Virus record (IMG/VR): IMGVR_UViG_3300047482_000061
Span: 1-21,241 of that record
DNA: 21,241 nucleotides
Reading direction: 5' to 3' (one strand)
Source: a virus
Shown: positions 1,559-21,219 of the stretch, in pieces
Layout: every line of letters starts with the position of its first letter
Position numbering within the stretch: position 1 is the stretch's first letter
Made by a program: the position numbers and the translations under genes
Notes under the pieces: model-generated
Databases searched by the model: none
What the model was told of the DNA's origin: nothing
What the model saw: only the letters and a program-made list of their open reading frames with translations

Positions 1559-4168
1559 ATGGAAATCAACTTTAAGCCAGTAGAGCTAGAGAGCAATATT
1601 AACCTAGAGGGTTTACCGGAATTTGAGTTGCCAACGGGTGGTATAGCAAAAGATGTTATTCTCGATGTGCTAATTAGTAAACAATACCAGAATCCTTTAA
1701 ACTCTTCTATTAGGGAGGCTTTTCAAAATGCGTTTGACGCTAACATAGAGTCTGGAAATGAGAACTTAGGTGTGCAGATAACGCTACCCTGTTGGACAGA
1801 CCCTACATTTTCAATCAGGGATTTTGGTAGGGGTATAGACCGGGAGCGGTTTGACAAAGTGTATAGAAGGATTGGCGAGTCAACAAAGAGGTCAGATAAT
1901 ACACAGTCAGGTGGTTTTGGTATAGGTAGGCTGTCAGCTTTAGCGGTATCAGACCAGGTTGCTATTACTTCTGTGGTAGATGGTGTAAAGTACACTCACG
2001 TATTGCTAAAAAGAGGAGACGGCAAGTACAGCTTTGTTACTGTAGATGAGAGTCCAACTGAGGAATTAAACGGGACAACAGTATCATACTCTGTAGCCGA
2101 GTACTTAAAGGGCTCTAACTACGCTGGAAAGGTTAAAGGTATTGAAGAGTTTATAAAAGAACTAACGTGGTGGTCAAAGCAACCTGTCTGGGTGAAAAAG
2201 TACATCCAAGCAGATGGAGGAGAAGGGGAAGGGCAAGAAACCTTTTCTTTACTAAACTCAAAGAAAGACCAAAACAAGGAAATTTTTGTTGACAGAGGTA
2301 ATTTCTTCTTCCCTGATGGGACGGCTTTTGAGTGGGAGTACAACTCTGATGACTTATTTGACTCAGTAGACTTTTATTTCATTGTAGGAAATTTAGCGTA
2401 CTGGGTGAACCCAGAAGATTTTAGGCCAACTAGAAGAGGAGGTAGCTATCTTACCTTAAAAAGCGAATATGCATTTTTTCTAAGTCATAGAGGACGCTTT
2501 GACCACTCGGCGTATCTTAATACAACAAGAAAGCCGTATTACGGGGATGTAACCGAGGGTAGAAAGCTAGCTATCTATACTAAACCTGGGGTACTAAAAT
2601 TAACTTCAAACAGGGAAAGGTTTCTTGATGATGAAGAATCTAGATCTCTTCAAAGAAAGTTATTAGATTATGCTTCTGAAGAATTTTTATTAAAAGCAAA
2701 AGCAAAGCTTGAAAATTCTAAGTCGTTAAAGGAGGCAATTCAAAACTTCTCAGTTTTTTACCCAGTAGAGAGTGAGACAGAAGGTTCAGCAACTTATAAA
2801 GGACATAAGCTGTCTCATTCGTGTTTAAGCTTCCGCTTTAACAGTGAAGAGGAGAAAAATTGGGTTATCTTCAAGCCGCTCAGTTCACTAAGTCCTGAAG
2901 ACTTGAGAGAGGTTGATAGAGACCTACAGGTTTTAGAACACTCTGGTTTAAAGACTAAAGAAGACTGTAAGGACAGCACTTGTCATACATTTAAAGGTGG
3001 AGAAGGGAGAGGGAGAATTTACAAGCAGATTCCTTTATACTACTTTCTAAAGTTTACTTGGGTAGTATGTAAAAAAGGTGTAAGACTAGATAAGATAAGG
3101 CAAAATCCTAGGGTACCAAAAGACAAAGTGCTGCTAGTTATTCAGCTACCTTTAGAGGGATGTACTACCCTAGCAGAGCAAGTAAGCAAACATTCTCTTT
3201 TGAAGTTAGCAGAACCACATGAGCTAGTTGTACTTGAGCCAGAAAAGAAGAAACCGAGTGCAAAAAAAGTTAGAGAGATTGACCCAGCTATTGAAATAAA
3301 ACAGCTAACAAAGCAGGGAAGAGTTAGAAAACTTGTACAAGGTTGGGAGAGGAGTAGAAAACGTTCTATCTATGAGATGACGCAGCCTTGCTACACAGAT
3401 CAAACTGGAGGGGTTTACGCTCTTACTACTACAGAAATGAATAACTTCTGTGCAGACTTTGTTCCTCCTAACCTGGCTGTTCAAGATATAAATTTTGTCC
3501 CTGATTCTGTAACAAGAATTTTAAGAAACGACCCAAATTGGATAAGCTTACAGGATTACTCTTGTAAGTATTTTAACGAGCTTATTACTAGATATGAAGA
3601 TGCTTTAGCACTGCTTGACTACAGAATTGACCTAAACTGGCTATCAGACGATGCAAAGCTTAGTAATCACCAGGCTGCAGAAGGTTTAGCTCAGATTCTA
3701 AGAGAAGCAGTAAGAATACATCCGGACTTTCCTGCCCTCTACTCTTTGATAGAACTTTTGTGCTCTCATCAAGAGTTTAGGTGGCTATCAAAAATATCTT
3801 CTCTAGAGGGAAACTCTTATATAAATGAGGAGAGTTCTGGAAGTCTTGAGAGAGTAGAGCACATAAAAAAGGTAAGGGTTAGGATAAACAACCAGAAAGG
3901 CTGGTCTGGCTGGGGTTTAGATAGTGAGTGGTATGTTAGTGATCTAATACCAGTCTTTTCTGCCTTGTATAAAGAATACCCAATGCTCTTATACTCTTTG
4001 GGGCAGTATAAATTGTGTGATCGTAGTAGACACCTCTCGCTTCCTAAATTTAAGGAGTTCCGCTATAGTTACAACGACGAAAAAGGACTCTCTATTTGGG
4101 GATCACATGATAAAATACTCGATGTACTGATTGACTACATTAAACTAATAAATAGTCAATCAGCATAA
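1559..4168 (+). CDS. rIIA: rIIA-like GHKL ATPase-domain protein
   Basis: The N-terminal domain of this 869-aa protein has the Bergerat ATP-binding motifs. The N-box is IREAFQNAFDA (E53, N57, D60), the G1 box is IRDFGRGID (D88, G90, G92) and the G2 box is GGFGIGRLSA (118-127). The pattern matches phage T4 rIIA (RELITNMIDA, CRDFGPGM, GGFGLGSKSP) better than Hsp90, MutL or gyrase. The remaining roughly 650 residues have no motif I recognise, and the protein is longer than T4 rIIA (about 725 aa). In T4, rIIA and rIIB are membrane-associated and counter lambda RexAB exclusion. The next gene is rIIB-like, which supports the call. Start: AAAGG about 8 nt before the ATG. It follows the shared element at 1501-1520. 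A weak hairpin lies just after its stop. Confidence 0.75.
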   Translation: MEINFKPVELESNINLEGLPEFELPTGGIAKDVILDVLISKQYQNPLNSSIREAFQNAFDANIESGNENLGVQITLPCWTDPTFSIRDFGRGIDRERFDKVYRRIGESTKRSDNTQSGGFGIGRLSALAVSDQVAITSVVDGVKYTHVLLKRGDGKYSFVTVDESPTEELNGTTVSYSVAEYLKGSNYAGKVKGIEEFIKELTWWSKQPVWVKKYIQADGGEGEGQETFSLLNSKKDQNKEIFVDRGNFFFPDGTAFEWEYNSDDLFDSVDFYFIVGNLAYWVNPEDFRPTRRGGSYLTLKSEYAFFLSHRGRFDHSAYLNTTRKPYYGDVTEGRKLAIYTKPGVLKLTSNRERFLDDEESRSLQRKLLDYASEEFLLKAKAKLENSKSLKEAIQNFSVFYPVESETEGSATYKGHKLSHSCLSFRFNSEEEKNWVIFKPLSSLSPEDLREVDRDLQVLEHSGLKTKEDCKDSTCHTFKGGEGRGRIYKQIPLYYFLKFTWVVCKKGVRLDKIRQNPRVPKDKVLLVIQLPLEGCTTLAEQVSKHSLLKLAEPHELVVLEPEKKKPSAKKVREIDPAIEIKQLTKQGRVRKLVQGWERSRKRSIYEMTQPCYTDQTGGVYALTTTEMNNFCADFVPPNLAVQDINFVPDSVTRILRNDPNWISLQDYSCKYFNELITRYEDALALLDYRIDLNWLSDDAKLSNHQAAEGLAQILREAVRIHPDFPALYSLIELLCSHQEFRWLSKISSLEGNSYINEESSGSLERVEHIKKVRVRINNQKGWSGWGLDSEWYVSDLIPVFSALYKEYPMLLYSLGQYKLCDRSRHLSLPKFKEFRYSYNDEKGLSIWGSHDKILDVLIDYIKLINSQSA

Positions 4169-5162: not shown

Positions 5163-5504
5163 ATGCCTGAGACAGAAAGAAAACTTTTCTCTTTTTCAAG
5201 GTCTATTGCAACTGAAGAAGAGCTAAGAGAAAAAGTAACCTCTACTTTGTGTTGCTTTTTAGGGTCAAGATTTCAAGAGGTCTTATCAGATTTAAAATTC
5301 TGCGAAGGGTTAACAACTGGCAGAATGAATGAAAGGATACTCCCATCCTTACTCAAAGACTTAATATTTAACAAGCTATGTGATGAACACGAGACATACC
5401 CAGTGTTCATAGAACTTTGCATAGAAAGCGCAGATTGGGAAAGAGTAGTAAAGCTTTTTGAACACTTAACTCTAGTTTCAAAAGTGGGGGTGTCAGATGA
5501 CTAA
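5163..5504 (+). CDS. Hypothetical helical protein, overlaps WD40-like gene
   Basis: This 113-aa product is not recognised. Predicted by eye, it is almost entirely alpha-helical and contains five cysteines (including a CC pair and an FIELCIES segment). It has no membrane segment and no catalytic motif. The start is well supported by AAGGAG about 9 nt upstream of the ATG. It ends inside the next gene: its stop TAA (5502-5504) overlaps the WD40-like ATG (5497) by 8 nt. Such overlap usually means translational coupling and often a shared complex, so a direct partnership with the WD40-like protein is a reasonable inference. The pair is bounded by a terminator on each side. Confidence 0.75.
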   Translation: MPETERKLFSFSRSIATEEELREKVTSTLCCFLGSRFQEVLSDLKFCEGLTTGRMNERILPSLLKDLIFNKLCDEHETYPVFIELCIESADWERVVKLFEHLTLVSKVGVSDD

Positions 5505-6060
5505 TCTGAAGACTTGGACTTCTGTAACAGTTGATGCAGAGGACTCTGCTCTTGACTTTGTAAAGAGTAGCCATGATACTAACCTTTTAGCTATGGTTTC
5601 TGGGGGAAGAGTTACTATCTGGGGTGAGGAAAGCTATAAGTTAGACAACTACGTTTCAAAGTGTAGTTGTATAGAGTTTTCAGATGACTCAAAGATTCTA
5701 GCAGCAGGATTTGAGGACGGCTCCATATTTGTATATAAGCTACCTTTACAGTTAAATGGTGAAATGACCGTTGAAAAAGTTGACCTTACTAGTCGTGATT
5801 TTTTCCTCCCTGGGGGGCTAAACGCAATTAGATGTTTAGCTTTTAACAAAGATAGTAGTCTGTTGGCTTATGCTAACGATTTTGGCTCAGTAGAAGTTGT
5901 GTCTGTTACTAACCAAAGCTCTGTGTACTTAGCTTTTGACTGTCACAGAAGTAAACCCCTATTTCTCTCTTTCTTAAGAGAGTTCAATAAAAGTGAAAAG
6001 AAAGAGTACCTTCTAAGCTGCTCTGAGAATGGGAAAATTATTCTACACTATCCTTACTAA
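5497..6060 (+). CDS. WD40-like mini beta-propeller protein
   Basis: The 187-aa product has about four WD40-type blade repeats. LLAMVSGGRVTIWG covers 30-43; IEFSDDSKILAAGFEDGSIF (59-78) leads into VYKL. LAFNKDSSLLAYANDFGSVE covers 114-133, and YLLSCSENGKIILHY (171-185) forms the last. The hydrophobic-D-S-x-hydrophobic-AxGxxDGxIxVY spacing is typical of the family. A closed propeller normally needs six to eight blades, so this protein would have to dimerise, pack against a partner, or be a shortened form. It overlaps the 113-aa gene by 8 nt and has a GTGGGGG Shine-Dalgarno inside that gene. WD40 domains are protein-binding scaffolds and are uncommon in phage operons of this kind. The target is unknown; a phage-encoded adaptor acting on a host complex is one possibility. 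Confidence 0.7.
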   Translation: MTNLKTWTSVTVDAEDSALDFVKSSHDTNLLAMVSGGRVTIWGEESYKLDNYVSKCSCIEFSDDSKILAAGFEDGSIFVYKLPLQLNGEMTVEKVDLTSRDFFLPGGLNAIRCLAFNKDSSLLAYANDFGSVEVVSVTNQSSVYLAFDCHRSKPLFLSFLREFNKSEKKEYLLSCSENGKIILHYPY

Positions 6061-6195: not shown

Positions 6196-6214
6196 GTAAC
6201 AAAAAAGTAAAGTG
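6196..6214 (+). promoter_or_regulatory. Shared upstream element GTAAC-A6-GTAAAGTG, copy 2
   Basis: This is the second copy of the element at 1501-1520, placed 26 nt before the endolysin GTG and after a terminator. An overlapping AACA(n)GTAAC precedes it, giving a partial tandem duplication. It is a candidate phage promoter. Confidence 0.45.
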
Positions 6215-6240
6215 CTAGTAAAGCATTCTGAGGGGAAGTT

Positions 6241-6864
6241 GTGTTTAGAAAAAAATTAATGATAGAAGTTTTACTTACAACAGCTTTAGCTTTAAATCCA
6301 ACTCCAGTAGTAACATCAGAACCTGTTAGGTTAACTGAGGAAAGAGTAGAGAAAATAGAAAGGCTACAGGAGGTATTAAAAAAAGATGTTATGCCCTTCA
6401 GGCAAGAAGAAGAGGAAGGAGTAAGCCTAACACAAGCTGGAGTTGATTTAATAAAAAAATCAGAGGGTTTAAGGCTCCGCTCTTACAGGTGTCCTAGCGG
6501 CAAACTGACAATAGGCTACGGTCATACTGGTAAAGAAGCTAGAAGAGGAAGAATTACTAAGCTAGAAGCTGAAAACCTTTTAGAACAGGATTTGGTAAAG
6601 TACGAAAGAGTTGTAAAAAACAGGGTAAAAGTTAGAATTAACAATGATCAATACACAGCCTTAGTCTCCTTTACCTTTAATATAGGTGAAGGAGCTTTTA
6701 GTAGGTCTTCTCTTTTAAGAAAGCTAAATAATGGTGACTTCTGTGGTGCTTCTAAAGAGTTTAAAAAATGGGTGAAGGGTAATAACGAAAGAATTTTGGG
6801 AGGGTTGGTTAAAAGAAGGCAGCAAGAGCAAGACATGTTTCTAACTGGTTTACAATGTAAATAG
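6241..6864 (+). CDS. GH24 endolysin (lysozyme) with N-terminal hydrophobic segment
   Basis: This muramidase of the T4/P21 lysozyme family cleaves the glycan backbone of peptidoglycan at the end of infection. The catalytic triad has the family spacing E-x8-(D/C)-x5-T: E75 in KKSEGLRLRSY, C84 in RCPSG, and T90 in LTIGYGH. Cysteine replaces the aspartate of T4 lysozyme, as in part of the family. The rest of the fold is visible in NNDQYTALVSFTFNIG (134-149) and the C-terminal WVKG...GLVKRRQQE. Residues 6-26 form a short hydrophobic stretch that could be a signal-arrest-release or signal sequence, but E9 lies within it, so secretion mode is uncertain. Residues 29-60 are a charged linker. It starts with GTG behind GAGGGGAAG, since no suitable ATG lies earlier. 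It converges with the tail-fibre operon. Confidence 0.92.
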   Translation: MFRKKLMIEVLLTTALALNPTPVVTSEPVRLTEERVEKIERLQEVLKKDVMPFRQEEEEGVSLTQAGVDLIKKSEGLRLRSYRCPSGKLTIGYGHTGKEARRGRITKLEAENLLEQDLVKYERVVKNRVKVRINNDQYTALVSFTFNIGEGAFSRSSLLRKLNNGDFCGASKEFKKWVKGNNERILGGLVKRRQQEQDMFLTGLQCK

Positions 6865-6929
6865 AGCAGCAGGGCATTCCGTTCTTAAAGCCAAGAGCCT
6901 CCTAAGCAATAGCCAGATTGTCTTGGAAG

Positions 6930-6959
6930 CCTACACTGTACTCGAAGAGTCAGTGTAGG
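6930..6959. other. Strong intergenic hairpin between converging units
   Basis: CCTACACTG (6930-6938) pairs with CAGTGTAGG (6951-6959), extended by ACTC/GAGT around a GAA loop with one bulged T. It lies between converging transcripts, where a two-way terminator is expected, but no T tract follows on either strand. On the minus strand it overlaps the end of a 37-codon ORF. Confidence 0.55.
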
Positions 6960-7044
6960 AGTATGTCACGTACTCAAGTAGTTCTAATTGTTCTGCTTGA
7001 GATAAAGATTCTATTAACTGCATTATCTCGTCTTTTTTAAACAT
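6931..7044 (-). CDS. Possible 37-aa small protein at end of fibre operon
   Basis: An ATG at 7044-7042 opens a 37-codon frame ending in TAG (6931-6933). The product begins MFKKDEIMQLIESLSQAEQL and reads like a short two-helix peptide (LIESLSQAEQLELLEYV), a pattern also seen in small antitoxin-like proteins. The ATG is 8 nt after the stop of the M15 peptidase gene, so it could be the last cistron of that operon. The Shine-Dalgarno is weak. Coding status is uncertain. Confidence 0.4.
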   Translation of the reverse strand: MFKKDEIMQLIESLSQAEQLELLEYVTYSYTDSSSTV

Positions 7045-7052
7045 AGTTTTAA

Positions 7053-7780
7053 TTAATATCCAAACCTAACCTGTGATAGACCATCCCTGATGTCAAAATG
7101 AACGAACCCACCTTTTCTGGGGTTAGTAGCGTCACCTAATCCCATAACACCCGGAGTATCTCTGAGGATGTTATACCATAGATTTATATCGTTCCGGTTC
7201 ATAGGAAATGAGTCTAGCGCCTTTCCTGGTATATGTTGACTCCGACTAGCTCCTATACCTAGATTAGCAGGACGATAACCAGACGTAATGGCTACAGGTT
7301 TCCCATATTTAGCTCTAGCTACACCAAAAACTTTAGCAGTAGCTATCAAGTTTTCTACTATTTGCTTAGAATTTGGTATGCGACGAGAATTAAAGTCCTT
7401 GGTCATTTCACCCCATGTTAAAGGGATGCCAGGAACAATGTATTCATTGGCGTAAACCAAGCCTAAGCCTGGTAAGTTAACTTTGTTACCTGTGCGACTA
7501 CCAGCCTCGACGATTACTTTAGTGGGAATATCCTCAAGCTGTTCAGATATATCATGAGGATGAATTGACTCCAGCAAAGATAAAGCCGTACTTGATCCTA
7601 ATTTGTCTGGGTACTCTAAATAATTTTTTTTTTAAACTCAGCAAACTTTTTGATTGTCTCACCACAGCAAAGCCCTGTAACTTGAATATCAAGGATAGCT
7701 TGAATTTCCTTTATGATGTCGCTGTCTAGGTAGTGTATAGAGGCATTACCTGTGAAACTGGATAGTAGTGGGTATGACAT
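7053..7780 (-). pseudogene. Peptidoglycan-binding/M15 peptidase gene, split by frameshift at A10 run
   Basis: Two frames together give one coherent 242-aa enzyme. Frame one starts at an ATG (7780-7778) and encodes a peptidoglycan-binding-like helical domain (IIKEIQAILDIQVTG, GETIKKFAEFK). It stops at 7616-7618 just after ten A (T at 7624-7633 on the plus strand). A -1 shift on that run continues as NYLEYPDKLGSSTALSL. It then reads through the 174-aa part opened by a TTG at 7577. The second part is a Peptidase_M15_3-type zinc peptidase: TSGYRPANLG, SQHIPGKALD (zinc ligands His and Asp), and GGFVHFDIR (third ligand His). Such enzymes cut peptide cross-links in peptidoglycan. As the last large gene of the fibre operon it is likely virion-associated or an accessory lysin. 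The break may be a real mutation, a homopolymer sequencing error, or programmed slippage. The TTG start alone would give an enzyme without its wall-binding domain. Confidence 0.72.
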
Positions 7781-7858
7781 TTGTTTGATCTATACAGAAT
7801 ATCAGAATACTTGCGATGCAAAATCATTGGTGCAATGTAGAATAAGCGAGTGTTAAAC

Positions 7859-8212
7859 TTATTGCTGAGAAAATGGAGTCTCATCTTGCTGAAAAATAAA
7901 TTCTCCAGGCACAATGTCATAATCTAATTCCATGGCATCAGGAACTAGGTCTAGTCCTTCAAGTACAGGATGAAAATCATTAGAAAGCACAGGGAACCCC
8001 CAGCCGTTTTGATATTCCATAACTTCAGCCCATCCTTTTACTCTAACGTCTAAATCAATGGCTAAAGACCCATCCCCAGCGTTAACGGGGATAATTCCTG
8101 CATCATCTATTATTTCAGGATTTTGCTCCCTAATTCTTGCTAGCACCTTAGCATTAATATCATCTAAAGCTGTTAATGCATCAGCTTGTGTTTTAAATAC
8201 GTAATGGTTCAT
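7859..8212 (-). CDS. Small fibre-operon protein, possible fibre accessory or chaperone
   Basis: This 117-aa product is acidic (MNHYVFKTQADALTALDDIN at its start). It has an N-terminal helix followed by strands, and a tail rich in D/E/Q (FIFQQDETPFSQQ). I do not recognise it by family. Its place directly after the distal fibre gene, with a 9-nt gap, is typical of fibre-assembly chaperones or small fibre accessory proteins, and that is the only basis for the suggestion. The ATG is supported by AGAGGA four nt upstream. An intergenic gap of 78 nt separates it from the peptidase gene. Confidence 0.7.
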   Translation of the reverse strand: MNHYVFKTQADALTALDDINAKVLARIREQNPEIIDDAGIIPVNAGDGSLAIDLDVRVKGWAEVMEYQNGWGFPVLSNDFHPVLEGLDLVPDAMELDYDIVPGEFIFQQDETPFSQQ

Positions 8213-8221
8213 AGCATCCTC

Positions 8222-9370
8222 TTAGTGTGAATTGTCAAAGTTCCATGTAGGTGATTTTGCTTTCATCCAGTTTCTAGCTTGAACTCCAGTAATGCCTGTG
8301 GAGAAATTGTAAGATGTTCCTCCCAAGGTTTCGTTTACGTTACGCAAGTTAGTTAAGAAAGGATAATTTAGCAGCAAGCTCTCTAAATTGTATACAGTGT
8401 TGTTGGGGTGTGGTTCAGTTAAAAAAGTTCCCTCGTTTCCTGAACCACTCGCAATAGTGGCAACAACTTTAGTGGGATTATTAGCTAACCCTGCGGCTAA
8501 AGATATATAAAGCTTATTAACAGAATCCTGGCTTAAAGCGGTAGACCCCCAGGTATATCTAAAAAAGGTTCCTGCTGTTAAATCAATAAAATCTGATGTT
8601 GTCAAAGTTTGCAAATGAGTCCAGGTAAAACCAAAGTTAGTTATGTTGCGATAGTTTAACCGGGGAACATTACTAATGCCATTTCTTAAGCTTCGTCCAC
8701 CCCATGTAGAAAATAATTCAGTAGTGGAAGTTATGTCTATGGGAGGAAAGTTACTAATGTAATTTTCAAAAACATTCATAGAGGCGTTTCCAATAGAAAA
8801 TCTATTAGCAAAATCAGTCTTGCCTTTGAAGTTAGACCCTCCCGTTTTACTTTGATGCCAAGCAGTGATTTTAGCCTCTATTTCTTGCATACCAGATGAT
8901 GTAAGCTCGTTAATTTTAGCGGTATTAATCATCATGATTCCAAAGATAAAATCACTCATATTAATGCCATAAGTACTCAACTCTAGAGGCAGTTGAGTAC
9001 CAAAAAAAATAGTAGTATTATTAGGAATTGTTCTGATAATTTCATACTTCAACAATCCTGCACTCGTACTAATATAGACATTTCCCGAGAAGGATGTGGG
9101 GAAATTTATGTTGATATTTCTAATGGCTGTGGAGCGAAAATCCAAACACCTTATTCCGTTTACAGTGGTATACAGAGGCTGATTCACCACAGTGCTGGGA
9201 ATAGTGGGATTTATTTTATCCGTTCCTCTATCAATCCAAGCCGATACGCTGTTAGAAGTGACAAACACTAACTCTGGTATGGTAGCGTCGTAAAACCTCT
9301 GAAAAACACCAGCGTTTATTTCGTTGGTCAGTGATGGACTAGACTGAGTTCTAACAATTAGTTTTGTCAT
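8222..9370 (-). CDS. Probable tail fibre/receptor-binding protein with LRR-like segment
   Basis: The 382-aa product is rich in Asn, Thr and Ser, as expected for an exposed virion adhesin. Residues from about 215 to 350 read like irregular leucine-rich surface repeats (FTWTHLQTLTTSDFIDLTAG). A segment STALSQDSVNKLYISLA (about 276-292) then resembles the closing repeat unit of LRR-type phage surface proteins. No catalytic motif and no membrane segment are seen. It is a middle gene of the leftward operon, 4 nt after the 750-aa gene and 9 nt before the 117-aa gene. No clear Shine-Dalgarno precedes the ATG, so coupling to the upstream gene is likely. The role in host recognition is inferred from position and composition. 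Confidence 0.65.
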   Translation of the reverse strand: MTKLIVRTQSSPSLTNEINAGVFQRFYDATIPELVFVTSNSVSAWIDRGTDKINPTIPSTVVNQPLYTTVNGIRCLDFRSTAIRNININFPTSFSGNVYISTSAGLLKYEIIRTIPNNTTIFFGTQLPLELSTYGINMSDFIFGIMMINTAKINELTSSGMQEIEAKITAWHQSKTGGSNFKGKTDFANRFSIGNASMNVFENYISNFPPIDITSTTELFSTWGGRSLRNGISNVPRLNYRNITNFGFTWTHLQTLTTSDFIDLTAGTFFRYTWGSTALSQDSVNKLYISLAAGLANNPTKVVATIASGSGNEGTFLTEPHPNNTVYNLESLLLNYPFLTNLRNVNETLGGTSYNFSTGITGVQARNWMKAKSPTWNFDNSH

Positions 9371-9374
9371 AGCA

Positions 9375-11627
9375 TTAAGATACTAAATGTCTGTAGGATG
9401 CGCGATCGCCTGTTTCGAGTGTGAATCTCAAAGATGTATTTGAATATTGATTTATAGCATCTGATATATAGGTTTCATTGGTTGAAAAATTATCCTGAGC
9501 CGAGGAAAACTCAAAGGCAAAGGTCAATGACACCCCCAATCCTGCACTTATTTGATTGGTGGATGATTGAAGCAAAGTAACAGAATCATTACCCTTGCGA
9601 ATGACCGTAGCTGGATAATAATTAGCAGTACTTATAGGCAGAGTAGGTAAAGTTCCTTGCCACGCCGTATCGCCAATGAAGATATTATTAAGGTTCTCAT
9701 TTGTCAACCCACTAACAATAAAAGTATTGGCTTGTTGACTATTATTATTGGCAACGGTTAAGCCAGTAAGAGCCAATGGATTTCTAACCCTAGCCACAGT
9801 GATGACATATTGAACAAAGGACAAAGTATAATTAGTGCCTGCAATGTTAACGACATCAGTTACGTTGCTTTGGGTAACTCCAGAAATTAATCTTAGCTGT
9901 CTATTGGTTGGGCTGTTAGCGTCATAAATTAACAACAAATTCCCCACAGCAGGAGCCGTATGATTAACCGTTGACCGCACTCTAATAGTTACTTGATTGT
10001 TGTTTATGGCGGTTAAAACATAGCTTCTAGATTGAACGTTAGAACCTTCTGCTATCAAGGCAGTACCGTTCCCGAAGGTTAAACCTGCGGTGGTATTCAC
10101 CAGGGACATGAAGGATTGATTATTGGTAACATTCCAGGACGATCCGTATAGCAGCACTGCGGATCTGTTGGCTATGGCTAAATCTCTTTGAGTTGTAGCA
10201 TTTAGCACTCCTCCTGATGTTTGAGTGCTTCTGTTAACCCTTATGCCATGAGTTATGTTTGTTCGAGCAGGGTTGAACATCTGTCTAAAATTAATCAAGG
10301 CATTGGATTTTAAAATCTCAAGAACAGATGTGGTAAACTCCAAAAACTCTAACCTACTAGCAGCACAAGGCTGAAAGCTTACAGCGCTGTTTACGTACTG
10401 GGCAATGCAGAGATTCTTTAAGCTTTGCTGATAACTTAAATCAGGAGAAGTAGCTGTGTTAAAAGTTCCCTCCAGTAATGCTGTTTCCAAGGATGACGGC
10501 ACAGGAAAGGGGATATTTCCTATATTTGGATAAAAGGGCTTTTTGAGTTCCTCTGATGCTGGTAAAAACGCAACGCTACTGCGTAATTCCAAATCTTTCA
10601 ACCCAGACAAATTCCCTAAATTTCTTTCTAGGGATGTTTCCGTGCTAATAAGTCCATTGACCACCCTTAATCCTGTTAAATGACTAAGGCCATTGGGCAA
10701 TCTTATCCTTAAGGTAAAGGGTAAATTGTCGATATTGTATCCTCTGTCAGGCACGACATACCAATTGTTGGTTCCTTGCACTGTAGATACAAAGTCATCT
10801 GGATACAACAGTTCAAAGGATTGATTAGTGGCTACTCTAATTTGTATGTTGCTAATGATACCGTGGGGAAGGTTTTCATCATTGTTGTTAGGTTTATTTG
10901 TTCCTCTAGGGTTTTGTGTCCCCAAGGGATTTTGGCTAGTAGTGGTTAAACCTAGGCAAGGTATAAATATTTCCTTGCTAAAATCAGGGTTAAGGGTGGG
11001 GATGGAAACGCCACCTTGAAGAGAAATGTCAACTATCTTGTTTCCGGAAAACCCAATAATCCCCACTCCATACAAAGTTCCTTGGGAAGTTAAGACAGGG
11101 CTACTATAAACCGTGGCTCCACCAGAAATATAAGAAACTATCCCGTTTTTAATATGTATTTCTAAGCTGGCAAAGGTTCTGTTAGAACCTAAGTCAATTA
11201 AATTTCTTCCATGTTGGACATATAGAACATCGCTAACATTAAATCCAAAGGGATTAACAATAAATCCATAAGCCATTAACCTTGTTACAGAATTAATGTG
11301 TCTCCCATGAAGGGGAGGAATTCCTATGGTAAAGCCACAAGCTGCTGACAATGGCGGGCTATTAGATTCAAGAGAATCCTTAGTAAAGCCAAACTTAAGA
11401 ATTACCCCGTTTTCCCCTCCATAGCCACCTTGATGATTAACCTTAAGATTGAAAGACCTCCACTGTCCAGTGCTATTATCAAAAGGTCTATTAACAAGGT
11501 TAACGTCACTACTTTGGGATGTTCTAGCTAGTTCCTGGGTGGGATACCCAGCCCCTTCATATTGCGATCGCTGATAAACAAAAGTTTCAGTATTAGAGGA
11601 AATATTTCGAGTTAAATCGTTTTTCAT
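9375..11627 (-). CDS. Large tail fibre-like structural protein (750 aa)
   Basis: This is a long, beta-rich, Asn/Ser/Thr-rich protein with no transmembrane segment. A central part carries leucine-rich stretches (LRVVNGLISTETS, NLGNLSGLKDLELRSS), suggesting LRR-like surface repeats shared in style with the downstream 382-aa protein. The C-terminal third is strand-rich (repeated NNxQxTIRVRS-like segments). No enzyme motif is visible. The start has AGGA about 5 nt before the ATG. The gene lies 7 nt after the 805-aa gene and 4 nt before the 382-aa gene. Two HIP1 octamers occur in it (9402 and 11564). It is most likely a fibre or adhesin; the exact position on the virion is unknown. Confidence 0.65.
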   Translation of the reverse strand: MKNDLTRNISSNTETFVYQRSQYEGAGYPTQELARTSQSSDVNLVNRPFDNSTGQWRSFNLKVNHQGGYGGENGVILKFGFTKDSLESNSPPLSAACGFTIGIPPLHGRHINSVTRLMAYGFIVNPFGFNVSDVLYVQHGRNLIDLGSNRTFASLEIHIKNGIVSYISGGATVYSSPVLTSQGTLYGVGIIGFSGNKIVDISLQGGVSIPTLNPDFSKEIFIPCLGLTTTSQNPLGTQNPRGTNKPNNNDENLPHGIISNIQIRVATNQSFELLYPDDFVSTVQGTNNWYVVPDRGYNIDNLPFTLRIRLPNGLSHLTGLRVVNGLISTETSLERNLGNLSGLKDLELRSSVAFLPASEELKKPFYPNIGNIPFPVPSSLETALLEGTFNTATSPDLSYQQSLKNLCIAQYVNSAVSFQPCAASRLEFLEFTTSVLEILKSNALINFRQMFNPARTNITHGIRVNRSTQTSGGVLNATTQRDLAIANRSAVLLYGSSWNVTNNQSFMSLVNTTAGLTFGNGTALIAEGSNVQSRSYVLTAINNNQVTIRVRSTVNHTAPAVGNLLLIYDANSPTNRQLRLISGVTQSNVTDVVNIAGTNYTLSFVQYVITVARVRNPLALTGLTVANNNSQQANTFIVSGLTNENLNNIFIGDTAWQGTLPTLPISTANYYPATVIRKGNDSVTLLQSSTNQISAGLGVSLTFAFEFSSAQDNFSTNETYISDAINQYSNTSLRFTLETGDRASYRHLVS

Positions 11628-11634
11628 AATGTTC

Positions 11635-14052
11635 CTAGTTTTGTCCAGTAATTATCGATATATTTGCCGTGACAACCTCTCCATTGCCTATGTGATCAGG
11701 ATATTCCTCAACATTTCCATAACTTGCTAGCAAGCTATCTCCTGTTCCAGATTCCCACTTTATTTGTTCTTGAAGAGTACTGAAGATTTCTCCTAGATTT
11801 TTAACGTAGAACAATATTAAATCTTGGGAAACAACACCTTTATTAAAGTCGAAACTATCAAAGGAAGATGAGAAAAACTCTCTATATTCTTGGAATATAT
11901 TTACAAGATTTATTTGCCTTGCCCCAGAGGAAATAAAGCTAAATATCTTTTCCCCCATCACTTCCAAGCCATCAGAAATCACCGCCGATATACCAGATGC
12001 CAAAAGATTTCCTTTAAGGAAAGAACCCCCAGCGTTTAAATCCACCAGCAACTTGTCAGTAGAATAATTGTAAACCTTGTTACTAGAGTCAAAAACAATT
12101 AACTCTAATAATTCATTAACCAACAAATCCACAGTTTCAAGAGCCAAAGACAGGGTGCTGGTGCTGTTGGTGCGGTAATTTCGTTGAGTAATGGTTCTAT
12201 CTAGCTTATTAGATACATAGGCAACATCTAAAGCGTCCACATATTGAATAATATCTGGATAATTCCCAGTGGCAAATCCCAGGGTGGTATTAAGGACATA
12301 ATTTGTGCTAGTTCTTTCAAAAACTTTCACGCTATTGTCCCCTACATTGGTTACATAAATGCGTTGACGGTTGTAAGCTATGGCTTTAGGTTGATTCAAT
12401 CCACTAAGGGTTTCCAGAACTGTATTGTTACTTGTACTAATGACCGTTACAGTGTCGTTAGCTTCATTAACCACAAACACCCTGCTGTCTCCAGCAACTA
12501 GAGCATTGGGTTTATCAGTTATTGGCAATGTTGCAATTAAAGATGCGGAACCTTGAGATACATTCCACACAGTTACTTTATCGTCATCAGGATGACTGGC
12601 ATAAAGAACAGAACCCACCAGCGCCAAATCACCACAGTTAAGATTATCTGTGATGATTCTGTAGGACTGTTGTAATGTGTTAGCATCTAAAGCTAAGATA
12701 TCCCCTTCATTAGACTGTCCCACAAACAAAACATTATCATCTTCTTTAAAACCAATGGCTGAAGCGTTAACGTCCACTTCTAATACAATAGCATTAAGTT
12801 CAATAGAAGCGACAATTAACTTTTCAGTCCCCACAAGATAAACGACTTCGTTACGACTGTATTCCTCTCGCAACGTAGGCTTAAAGTCCAAAGAATTAAT
12901 GTTATTAGGCGTGACCAAAAACCGCCTAATTATTATCTCGCAAGGTACTGTGCTGGACACATTTAAAAGCTTAGGAAATTGTTTAATTGTGCATTGCTTA
13001 TTATTAAACAAATCCTTGGTAAACATAGCAAACATCAATACCTCTTTCTCAGGAATTAATATCTGAGATTGAGAAGACATGGAAAAAAGCTTAATGGGGG
13101 CTGTGTCTACCCCCAGCTTAATAGCAGAAGTTCCGTATTTTGCCAATACCTCAGTGGTTAAGCCGTTAGATATGTTCTGGAATGTAATAGGCAACGACGT
13201 AGGTGACCGCTCGGCCACAATGTCAATATCACTGCTAGGTATTTTTGCAAAACAAATCCATCGGTGAGAACCACCTTGGGATGCATCCTTTGCATAGATA
13301 TAAAACTTCGTAGCGCTGGAGTCGTAGCTACCAAGTTCAATAGCAAACATAGCAACAAGGTCAAACTTCAGAACCAGTCCAGAGGAACCACTACCATCCA
13401 GGCGATCGCTGAAATAAGGGCTGAACCTATTAAACCTAAGCTCTTGGGTTTGACCTAGGTCATCCACATATCTGCGAACCAATCGAAAGTTATCGCCACT
13501 GCCATCTTCTACAACCTCTATATACCATCCAGAAGATTCAGAAAATATACCAGCCCGTTTTATTCCTGAACCTGTACTCATTTTCATTCCAAAGCTAATA
13601 AACAAGTTAGTTCCAGATGGACAATCAAATAGCTGCTTACTAGTAAGAATGATGTATTTCTGATTACTAATGGTGGAAGAAGGGATTATTAATTCAATGG
13701 CAGAATCATTGTAAGTTGCAAAACTATCAAAGCCACTATAGGAGGCGGACAACCCTTGTCCATAACCCCACAAACGCAGGTTTTCAGGAGTAGCAGACTC
13801 ATCAGCCGAGGAATAAGACAATATCCATCGGTTAAGGTCGATGCCGTAGGCATTGGTATCTGCAAATAAAAGTACTCGCTCATCTTGCACTGGAAAGCCA
13901 AACTGGCTAATTTCCAACACTTCAGGAGGAATAGGCTGAGATATCCTATCGACAGGAAATATTCTATCAGTAGCTAACACCACCGGATAGGACTGAGAAG
14001 ATAAAGCACTTCCCCTGGCTGCAATGTTCTCAGGAAAGTAAAGCTTTTTCAT
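11635..14052 (-). CDS. Tail fibre-like protein with YVTN-type beta-propeller
   Basis: The 805-aa product has three parts. Residues 45-80 contain FGFPVQDERVLLF and YGID..RW, also found in the upstream 636-aa protein, so the two share a virion-attachment or core domain. Residues about 100-400 are beta-rich. Residues about 400-675 form a run of roughly 40-residue repeats of the YVTN propeller type: KVTVWNVSQGS, RVFVVNEANDTVTVIS, RIYVTNVGDNSVKVFE, VAYVSNKLDRTI. The repeats would close into a six- or seven-bladed propeller. The C-terminal 120 residues are helical (SFDSFDFNKG... then EQIKWESGTG). YVTN propellers occur in surface-layer and adhesion proteins. In a fibre operon this one may bind a host surface structure. 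One HIP1 site lies in the gene (13402). The gap to the upstream gene is 2 nt. Confidence 0.72.
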   Translation of the reverse strand: MKKLYFPENIAARGSALSSQSYPVVLATDRIFPVDRISQPIPPEVLEISQFGFPVQDERVLLFADTNAYGIDLNRWILSYSSADESATPENLRLWGYGQGLSASYSGFDSFATYNDSAIELIIPSSTISNQKYIILTSKQLFDCPSGTNLFISFGMKMSTGSGIKRAGIFSESSGWYIEVVEDGSGDNFRLVRRYVDDLGQTQELRFNRFSPYFSDRLDGSGSSGLVLKFDLVAMFAIELGSYDSSATKFYIYAKDASQGGSHRWICFAKIPSSDIDIVAERSPTSLPITFQNISNGLTTEVLAKYGTSAIKLGVDTAPIKLFSMSSQSQILIPEKEVLMFAMFTKDLFNNKQCTIKQFPKLLNVSSTVPCEIIIRRFLVTPNNINSLDFKPTLREEYSRNEVVYLVGTEKLIVASIELNAIVLEVDVNASAIGFKEDDNVLFVGQSNEGDILALDANTLQQSYRIITDNLNCGDLALVGSVLYASHPDDDKVTVWNVSQGSASLIATLPITDKPNALVAGDSRVFVVNEANDTVTVISTSNNTVLETLSGLNQPKAIAYNRQRIYVTNVGDNSVKVFERTSTNYVLNTTLGFATGNYPDIIQYVDALDVAYVSNKLDRTITQRNYRTNSTSTLSLALETVDLLVNELLELIVFDSSNKVYNYSTDKLLVDLNAGGSFLKGNLLASGISAVISDGLEVMGEKIFSFISSGARQINLVNIFQEYREFFSSSFDSFDFNKGVVSQDLILFYVKNLGEIFSTLQEQIKWESGTGDSLLASYGNVEEYPDHIGNGEVVTANISIITGQN

Positions 14053-14054
14053 AA

Positions 14055-15965
14055 CTATTGCACTCCATAGGTTAAAGCACAGGATGCGATCGCACTAGAT
14101 GTTCCTAAACTACGAGCAATAATAGTTAAGGTGTCTCCAGGGCTACCACTTGCTGTAGTTTCGGCTCTCCCTAATAGTTCTCTTTGAGGATCAAATATCT
14201 CTGAAAGGTTAATTTCTGTTCCTTCGTCTTGTCCACAGTAGAAGGCTCCAATCAATTTACCTCCAGTATTGGAAGGGAAATAATTAACACTATCAAAGGT
14301 ATTAGTACTACCTTTTAAAACCGCAACAGCTCGTAAATGGTCAGCATCTTGCTTCCCTCTATACCAGTCTCCATCAGTAACGAATTGATTTGTAGTATTT
14401 TTAATTAAATAGAACTCGGTATTTTGAGTTGAACTAACGTAAAGACTGAGTGGATAAACGCGGCTTTTTTGTGGACGTTCACTATCTTGTGTTGCGACAT
14501 CCTTGTTGTAAATAAAAGGTTTAACCGCGATCGCAAGCATGATTTTATAGCTATCAGTTGCAACAGATAATCCTGTACTAGATGCACTTTCAATTTTAGC
14601 CGGACGAGGGTCTCCACCGTTAATCCATACAGATACGCCAAACCGTCGCAAGAAAGCAGCAGAAGTATCCTTGTCTACTTTGTCTGCTCTTTTCCCGATC
14701 ATGTACGTAATAGGCATATCTGGAGAAGACATGGAAGGTACAGGCAATGTGTCCCCTACCCTAATTTCATGTCCTGGAACCCAACGAGTTGCTCCATTGA
14801 ATGGAGGGTTTTGATCAGGAATGTAAGCCATCCCTCTTCCACCAGCACCGCCATACCAACTGCGTTCGATTAAGAACATGCAGAGGTTTGATTCTTCATT
14901 GAAGTAAAGAGTAGAACCAGAAAGTCCTGTAGCACTAATAGTGATAGTATTGTTCTGACTATTGACCGAAACAATCCTGGCTTTGTTGTTGATATCCCTA
15001 ACAGTCATTCCAGGACTTAGGATGGTGCCAATTTGTATGTCTAGATTATTAAAGGTAATAGTAAAACCATTTACCGTACAACCTGAGATTTCAAAAGAGT
15101 CAGAAATGTAACTAATGTTTTTGGCTGAGGGTTTAGTTCTAAATCCACTAATTCCTGGAGCGGCATCTGCTTCTTTTCCTGTGTACCTATCTTGATTAAA
15201 CCTTGCTTCAACGATGGTATCAGAAGTATCATCGCTAAGAGTAGTAAAGCCTATGTCTTCCCAAGTGTTTAGTCCTATGTAGGTTGTATCGTTTCCACTA
15301 CCTACCAGATAGCTAGGTCTGTAACAAGTGGAATTACCAATAGAAACACCAAAAGATCCCCCAACAATACCACTGGGACATCTAGTAGCTGTGGAGGTTA
15401 TTCCAGACGGAATAGCGGAAGTACGACGGAAAAAGAGTAGGTAATTATGCCACCTAGTTACTGAACCTACTGGTGTTCCTCTCCTTGATAATACGCGCCA
15501 TCCATACCCATCATTTTTTGTATATTCTCCCCATTGAACAAAGGAATTAGCGATAGAAGCGCCTTTGGCGATTTGAACCGCCTGGGAAATAAATATTGGT
15601 TTACCAGGCTGATATTTGTAGGCGAATTTCGTTTGATGGGACGAGAATAAACTGTTACCTGTAGGAATAGCTAGATTAACCGCACTATTGATAGGAAGGT
15701 AAGTTACAGATCCTGTTGCGGGTGTATTCAACCATGTGTTTTCATCAATTCCATATTGCGGTAGCTCCTGTAATAAGAATTGGCGATTTTCCACTACAGG
15801 AAAACCAAACATTGAAGATTTTACGTCACTTACTAGCGCAGTTGCATCAGTAACTAATAGAGCTTCTTGGTCTAAAGGTAAGGTTACTGGTAGAGATTCA
15901 GATGAGGGTTTGGGTCCTGGGGTTAGTGGTATGTTTCTAGAAAATACATATTCTGTGTTAGACAT
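14055..15965 (-). CDS. Tail or capsid fibre-like protein (636 aa)
   Basis: The N-terminal 150 residues carry the block shared with the 805-aa protein (FGFPVVENRQFLL at 54-66, YGIDENTW at 71-78). It then reads QTKFAYKYQPGKPIFISQAV and VQWGEYTKNDGYGWRV. This is a layout I associate with phage fibre proteins having a beta-sandwich that recognises fluorescence-like 'FG.F...DG' patterns; I cannot name the family with certainty. The rest is beta-rich, with a glycine-rich stretch near GGAGGRGMAYIP. Shine-Dalgarno AAAGGA lies about 8 nt before the ATG. It is the second gene of the leftward operon and contains two HIP1 octamers (14086 and 14527). A structural role is likely; position in the virion is unknown. 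Confidence 0.68.
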   Translation of the reverse strand: MSNTEYVFSRNIPLTPGPKPSSESLPVTLPLDQEALLVTDATALVSDVKSSMFGFPVVENRQFLLQELPQYGIDENTWLNTPATGSVTYLPINSAVNLAIPTGNSLFSSHQTKFAYKYQPGKPIFISQAVQIAKGASIANSFVQWGEYTKNDGYGWRVLSRRGTPVGSVTRWHNYLLFFRRTSAIPSGITSTATRCPSGIVGGSFGVSIGNSTCYRPSYLVGSGNDTTYIGLNTWEDIGFTTLSDDTSDTIVEARFNQDRYTGKEADAAPGISGFRTKPSAKNISYISDSFEISGCTVNGFTITFNNLDIQIGTILSPGMTVRDINNKARIVSVNSQNNTITISATGLSGSTLYFNEESNLCMFLIERSWYGGAGGRGMAYIPDQNPPFNGATRWVPGHEIRVGDTLPVPSMSSPDMPITYMIGKRADKVDKDTSAAFLRRFGVSVWINGGDPRPAKIESASSTGLSVATDSYKIMLAIAVKPFIYNKDVATQDSERPQKSRVYPLSLYVSSTQNTEFYLIKNTTNQFVTDGDWYRGKQDADHLRAVAVLKGSTNTFDSVNYFPSNTGGKLIGAFYCGQDEGTEINLSEIFDPQRELLGRAETTASGSPGDTLTIIARSLGTSSAIASCALTYGVQ

Positions 15966-18516: not shown

Positions 18517-18831
18517 ATGACAGAAGTTACTAAGAATGATACCCTATTAGGAACAAAAGATATCCTCTCTTGCTTAAAGTCAAAAGGGCTATCAACTGAA
18601 CAGGCAAAAGTGGCTCTAGACACAATTATTGATTTAATAAGAGAGTCTGTTTCTAGCGGCAATACTGTCAGAATTGGTAAGCTTGGTAAATTCACTAAAG
18701 TTTACAGAGCTGAGAGAAAAGCTAGAAATCCTCATAACAGGGAAGAAATAATAGTTGTTCCTGGTCATTGGGTAGCTAAATTCTACCCAGCAAAAGCTAT
18801 GAAAGAGTTGATTAGCTCTAATTCACAGTAA
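18517..18831 (+). CDS. HU/IHF-family DNA-binding protein
   Basis: Small dimeric DNA-bending proteins of this family coat and bend DNA. The 104-aa product shows the whole pattern: an N-terminal helix pair (TKDILSCLKSKGLSTEQAK), a helix DTIIDLIRESVSSG, and the V-x-I-G-x-(L/F)-G-x-F motif as VRIGKLGKFT (51-60). The arm RAERKARNPHNREEI includes the family's intercalating proline after Asn (N71-P72). The C-terminal strand/helix is KFYPAKAMKELI. It is slightly longer than bacterial HU (about 90 aa), with short extensions at both ends, similar to phage-encoded versions. It is a single gene with its own terminator. A likely role is phage nucleoid organisation or late-gene control. Upstream of the ATG the ribosome binding site is poor (A-rich). 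Confidence 0.93.
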   Translation: MTEVTKNDTLLGTKDILSCLKSKGLSTEQAKVALDTIIDLIRESVSSGNTVRIGKLGKFTKVYRAERKARNPHNREEIIVVPGHWVAKFYPAKAMKELISSNSQ

Positions 18832-20984: not shown

Positions 20985-21013
20985 GAACTGCGGGTTTCTA
21001 AGTCCCTCAGTTC
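20985..21013 (-). repeat. Hairpin overlapping tnpB stop, possible IS right-end/omegaRNA structure
   Basis: GAACTG (20985-20990) pairs with CAGTTC (21008-21013), and GGG with CCC inside, separated by one mismatch and a 9-nt loop. The hairpin spans the TGA of the tnpB fragment (21007-21009). IS200/IS605 elements carry hairpin ends, and their guide RNA overlaps the tnpB 3' end, so this fits such an end. Confidence 0.5.
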
Positions 21014-21219
21014 TTTTTTAGCAAGACCTTAGCAGCATTATCTCTGTTCTGCAAATATTCACAAACACTACACTCATAAACTTTGATATCTAGAGTTTTC
21101 TTGTGTTGATGTCCACATTTGGGACAGATTTGAGAGTGTCTAACTTTCTTAGTTGAAACTTCCACTTCCTTATCAACCTTGAGGTTGATTTTGATCAGGT
21201 ATACAATCGTCGCAACGAG
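21007..21219 (-). pseudogene. tnpB: TnpB (IS200/IS605-type) C-terminal fragment
   Basis: TnpB is an RNA-guided nuclease encoded by IS200/IS605-family elements. The 70-codon open frame contains the four-cysteine zinc finger (CPKCGHQHKKTL, then YECSVC) and the hallmark NRDNAAKVLL just before the stop. An in-frame TAG (21220-21222) lies upstream, and no usable start is seen, so within this window the gene is broken, frameshifted or truncated. More of it may lie beyond the right edge. TnpB genes are common in cyanobacterial genomes and in large phages. The RuvC catalytic residues upstream cannot be checked here. Confidence 0.65.

Follow-up and report, generated by a model that had tools for sequence, protein, structure and literature searches.

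Reading Frames at the Locus

The window, by which we mean the whole stretch of DNA analysed (21,241 bases), comes from an IMG/VR virus record and belongs to a virus, not to a cellular genome. On its minus strand, a frame of 54 codons opens with the ATG at position 7780 and closes with a stop codon ending at 7616, shortly past a run of ten A (A10; 7633–7624). Reading in the −1 frame from this run onward yields a stop-free 242-aa protein (MSYPLL...FKKKNYLEYPDK...RFGY) that ends at 7053. The original prediction had described a 54-codon frame terminating just past ten A and a seamless 242-aa product generated by a −1 shift at that place; its coordinates were exact, and we reproduced the continuous product. 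As recorded, the gene is not a single ORF, being interrupted at A10, whereas the 36 homologues described below are uninterrupted (features are listed in table 1). Convergent with it lies an intact phage lysozyme gene on the plus strand (6241–6864; PF00959, E-value of 2e−42), whose product has a hydrophobic N-terminus.

Table 1. Features of the interrupted gene, with window coordinates
Feature	Coordinates	Strand	Basis
Complete interrupted gene, PGB-like plus peptidase M15 cell-wall hydrolase	7053..7780	−	242 aa via −1 reading at the A run; homologue alignments
54-aa frame-0 ORF, PGB-like helices 1 and 2, then KKKII and stop	7616..7780	−	ORF list; predicted structure of homologue L004
A10 run at the frame break, containing A AAA AAA in frame 0	7624..7633	−	Sequence
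174-aa ORF of the −1 frame, covering PGB helix 3, the linker, and the catalytic M15 domain (S181-Q-H183 ... D190 ... H228)	7053..7577	−	TTG start; Pfam; alignments

Domain Composition and Known Relatives

Judged by its sequence, the 242-aa product is a cell-wall hydrolase that combines a peptidoglycan-binding (PGB) domain with a peptidase M15 (zinc DD-peptidase) domain in the architecture of the solved structure 1LBU, with a predicted enzymatic activity. Its downstream part matches PF08291 (Peptidase_M15_3; E-value of 2e−10, 41.2–42.7 bits for a cut-off of 23.2) as well as PHROGs endolysin families, and contains the M15 motif SxHxxGxxxD and the later H (SQHIPGKALD and GFVHFD), the S, H, D, and H residues being invariant in the alignments. 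In a profile search of solved structures, the best match of this catalytic part was the muramoyl-pentapeptide carboxypeptidase 1LBU (2.7e−13), which was also the sole match below 1e−3 in a fold search (4e−5). The N-terminal part had been described as PGB-like at its start; it has no Pfam match in the window protein itself, but it is colinear with the PF01471 (PG_binding_1) match of homologues, so that the assignment is putative, being made through homologues and not through direct detection. In the homologue of a Nodularia MAG (L004), the PF01471 match reaches 23.7 bits for a cut-off of 23.0, and the predicted structure (mean pLDDT 88) shows helices at residues 19–29, 39–51, and 62–72, with the M15 domain after them. 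Profile searches with the N-terminal part matched the spore cortex-lytic enzyme and other PGB domains. The DGxxG motif of PGB domains is altered in the window protein (D35T and G39C).

The most similar proteins are cyanobacterial and cyanophage proteins that associate PGB and Peptidase_M15_3 domains, such as WP_179070732.1 from a Nostoc plasmid (annotated as "D-Ala-D-Ala carboxypeptidase family metallohydrolase") and L004. These are colinear with the window protein over their full length (39–57% identity) and have the same domain order and HxxGxxxD...H motif, but are uninterrupted, whereas the window gene is broken at A10 by a −1 shift and its PGB DGxxG is degraded. 1LBU, the zinc DD-carboxypeptidase of Streptomyces albus G, likewise possesses an N-terminal three-helix PGB domain followed by an M15 catalytic domain; it is, however, only 16% identical, and the whole chains superpose poorly (TM 0.36–0.40, rmsd 13.7), indicating that either the domain placement or the model differs. 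Similarity to the endolysins of Synechococcus phage S-CBS3 and Microcystis phage LMM01 is confined to the catalytic part, the M15 regions being 36–38% identical.

A Single Frame in All Homologues

Homologues were gathered from IMG/VR viral contigs, genome contigs, a Nostoc plasmid, and 391 genomes from the order to which the Nodularia MAG (G001) belongs. The resulting set comprises 36 sequences (32–57% identity) from Nostocales genomes, the Nostoc plasmid, and IMG/VR viral contigs. In every one of them, a single stop-free frame encompasses both parts, which excludes the possibility, raised in the original prediction, that homologues always encode the two domains as separate genes. At the junction, FKKK-NYLEYP aligns without gap to the homologous segments (e.g., FKEK-RYLDYP). 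The run itself, whose conservation in related phages had been put forward as informative, is absent from all 36 homologues, none of which has more than six A at this place. A DNA search with the gene region in 391 genomes from the Chlorogloeopsis (G002) order retrieved as best match the same gene (L091) in genome G284, with 67% identity, and direct DNA alignment with this nearest relative displays a one-base gap precisely at A10. Together, the fused and gapless homologues and the one-base gap indicate one gene broken once, and neither two genes nor a conserved recoding site. The single frame of the homologues gives the ancestral state, so that the shift out of frame is confined to this record or its close lineage. 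That two halves of one binding-plus-peptidase enzyme are split by one base at A10, as originally proposed, agrees with the fused form being the norm.

Codon comparison indicates that the −1 frame past the break is under coding constraint: over 186 codons, mismatches at the three codon positions amount to 53/44/114 with L091 and 56/41/116 with L007, and a weaker excess at third positions is also seen before the break in frame 0. Of 10 positions within residues 1–53 that at least 80% of homologues conserve, the window protein has lost 3 (D35T, G39C, and A45K) versus at most two in any homologue, and the PGB aspartate replaced by D35T is otherwise invariant. These three substitutions may be taken as mild support for relaxed constraint. 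They could speak, as could the presence of a second lysozyme in this phage, for a genuine decaying pseudogene in which relaxed selection has let several lesions accumulate, the break among them, which would be a sub-case of a real indel. Such decay nevertheless seems unlikely, as no additional stop or frameshift was found in the gene and, of 52 conserved positions in the catalytic part, 46 are retained, a count inside the homologue range.

Programmed Frameshifting and Separate Genes

Slippage at the run had been considered as a device for making two products. Frame 0 does contain an in-frame slippery heptamer (A AAA AAA) with a stop soon after, as programmed frameshifting would require to deliver both the binding domain alone and the binding plus catalytic form, but several observations make this very improbable. 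The run and the dual-frame arrangement are kept in none of the 36 homologues. No 3′ stimulatory structure was detected in the 113 nt that begin at the run (pseudoknot-free folding, z = −0.85, 34 of 200 shuffles being as good). The 54-aa product stops before helix 3 of the binding domain (residues 62–72 of L004) and, since it would end just after the second of three helices according to the L004 model, it would be an incomplete binding module, in which the hallmark D and G are already lost.

It is likewise very improbable that the locus consists of two separate genes with the M15 part translated from its own start at TTG 7577. Although a 174-aa ORF is present, no Shine–Dalgarno-like sequence lies upstream of this TTG, the next ATG of the M15 frame (7406) falls inside the catalytic domain, and both domains are fused in all homologues. 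No credible independent start for the M15 part was found.

Origin of the Frame Break

The locus is best explained as one cyanophage cell-wall hydrolase gene, with an N-terminal PGB-like three-helix domain and a C-terminal M15 zinc DD-peptidase, whose frame is broken in this record by a one-base change in the length of a lysine-coding A run. The event would have occurred by chance, either as an error in the contig consensus or as a real and presumably recent indel due to replication slippage. We consider it very probable that one hydrolase gene was broken by such a homopolymer event, without programmed recoding, and regard a homopolymer error and a real indel as roughly equal in likelihood. One A10 is seen in the window while shuffling predicts 0.88. 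Within coding frames of the window it is the sole run of at least nine A or T, the next in length having eight, which makes it the expected place for a consensus error or for replication slippage. Homopolymer errors in metagenome contigs affect ∼0.3–1% of genes with Illumina and 2–3% with 454 sequencing (PMC3277595). Two points count against a chance event: A10 is sufficiently long for bacterial transcriptional slippage, and, as the nearest homologues are only 56–57% identical, closer relatives may share a recoding site specific to their lineage.

A real indel could also be tolerated if RNA polymerase slipped at A10, or ribosomes at A AAA AAA, so that some full-length enzyme was made in a nonprogrammed manner. 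We hold this only as a tentative reading, rather doubtful on balance; it does not conflict with the real-indel branch of the chance event, and our confidence in the two overlaps. A10 lies within the range of ∼9 or more A or T expected for poly(A) slippage, and there are precedents in Citrobacter rodentium tssM1, where slippage at an A11 run reaches 20–25% (PMC4256274), and in Blochmannia genes with poly(A) frameshifts (PMC3017870). As in the window, the frame of C. rodentium tssM1 and Blochmannia dnaX is broken at a long A run and the downstream frame is otherwise intact; slippage was measured for tssM1, however, whereas the window gene is known from sequence alone. Slippage by the Escherichia coli RNA polymerase needs at least seven T and even more A, being comparatively poor on A runs (PMC6260861). 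The apparent constraint on the frame past the break and the intact catalytic residues would be consistent with rescue, but an intact downstream frame is equally explained by recency or by error, and the second intact lysozyme (6241–6864) means that loss of the M15 gene may simply be tolerated.

A stronger form of slippage, in which A10 would be a fixed site in this phage lineage only, throttling the M15 hydrolase during infection so that full-length lysin is made at a low, ratio-controlled level, is highly unlikely. Were slippage to be demonstrated, the locus would be a rare example of poly(A) slippage controlling the dose of a phage lytic enzyme, but no observation speaks for slippage rather than for an error or an indel by chance. 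The chance break matters mainly for annotation: both ORFs are best recorded as a single interrupted endolysin-type gene.

Relatives, Host, and Other Genes of the Window

Scans for near-identical viral contigs, in which the run length could be compared, returned none, but passed over the record of the window itself and possibly others near it: a degenerate pattern satisfied by the window returned nothing in the collection scan, the window included. Because very near records are omitted, the lack of a match there says nothing about close relatives. Two further window proteins, one RIIA-like and one a virion structural protein, retrieved no relative in viral contigs, a DNA search of known phages with positions 6200–9400 gave no match, and the literature on frameshifted endolysins held nothing directly relevant at the level of titles and abstracts. 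The host is probably a filamentous cyanobacterium, as judged solely from the closest homologues (Nodularia, Nostoc, and Chlorogloeopsis). In the Nodularia MAG, the PGB-M15 gene (L004, 614–1336) lies near putative chromosomal genes resembling hisF and ruvB (named from their translations), with no evident prophage.

Elsewhere on the plus strand, the RIIA-like protein (1559–4168, 869 aa) matches the PHROG RIIA lysis inhibitor (E-value of 4e−37) and has no viral-contig relative by peptide patterns; a phage WD40-repeat protein (187 aa; Pfam WD40) is encoded at 5497–6060 and an HU/IHF-like DNA-binding protein (PF00216) at 18517–18831. A 9-bp unit encoding (EEV)n is repeated in 13.7 perfect copies at 847–969, within the ORF at 428–1186. 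On the minus strand, two large adjoining ORFs (11635–14052 and 14055–15965) correspond to distinct portions of one virion structural family (phrog_1645), with beta-propeller-like repeats also present in the former, and a 52-aa ORF (21007–21165) resembles the zinc-ribbon end of TnpB/Cas12f (PF07282), perhaps a transposon remnant by the contig edge.
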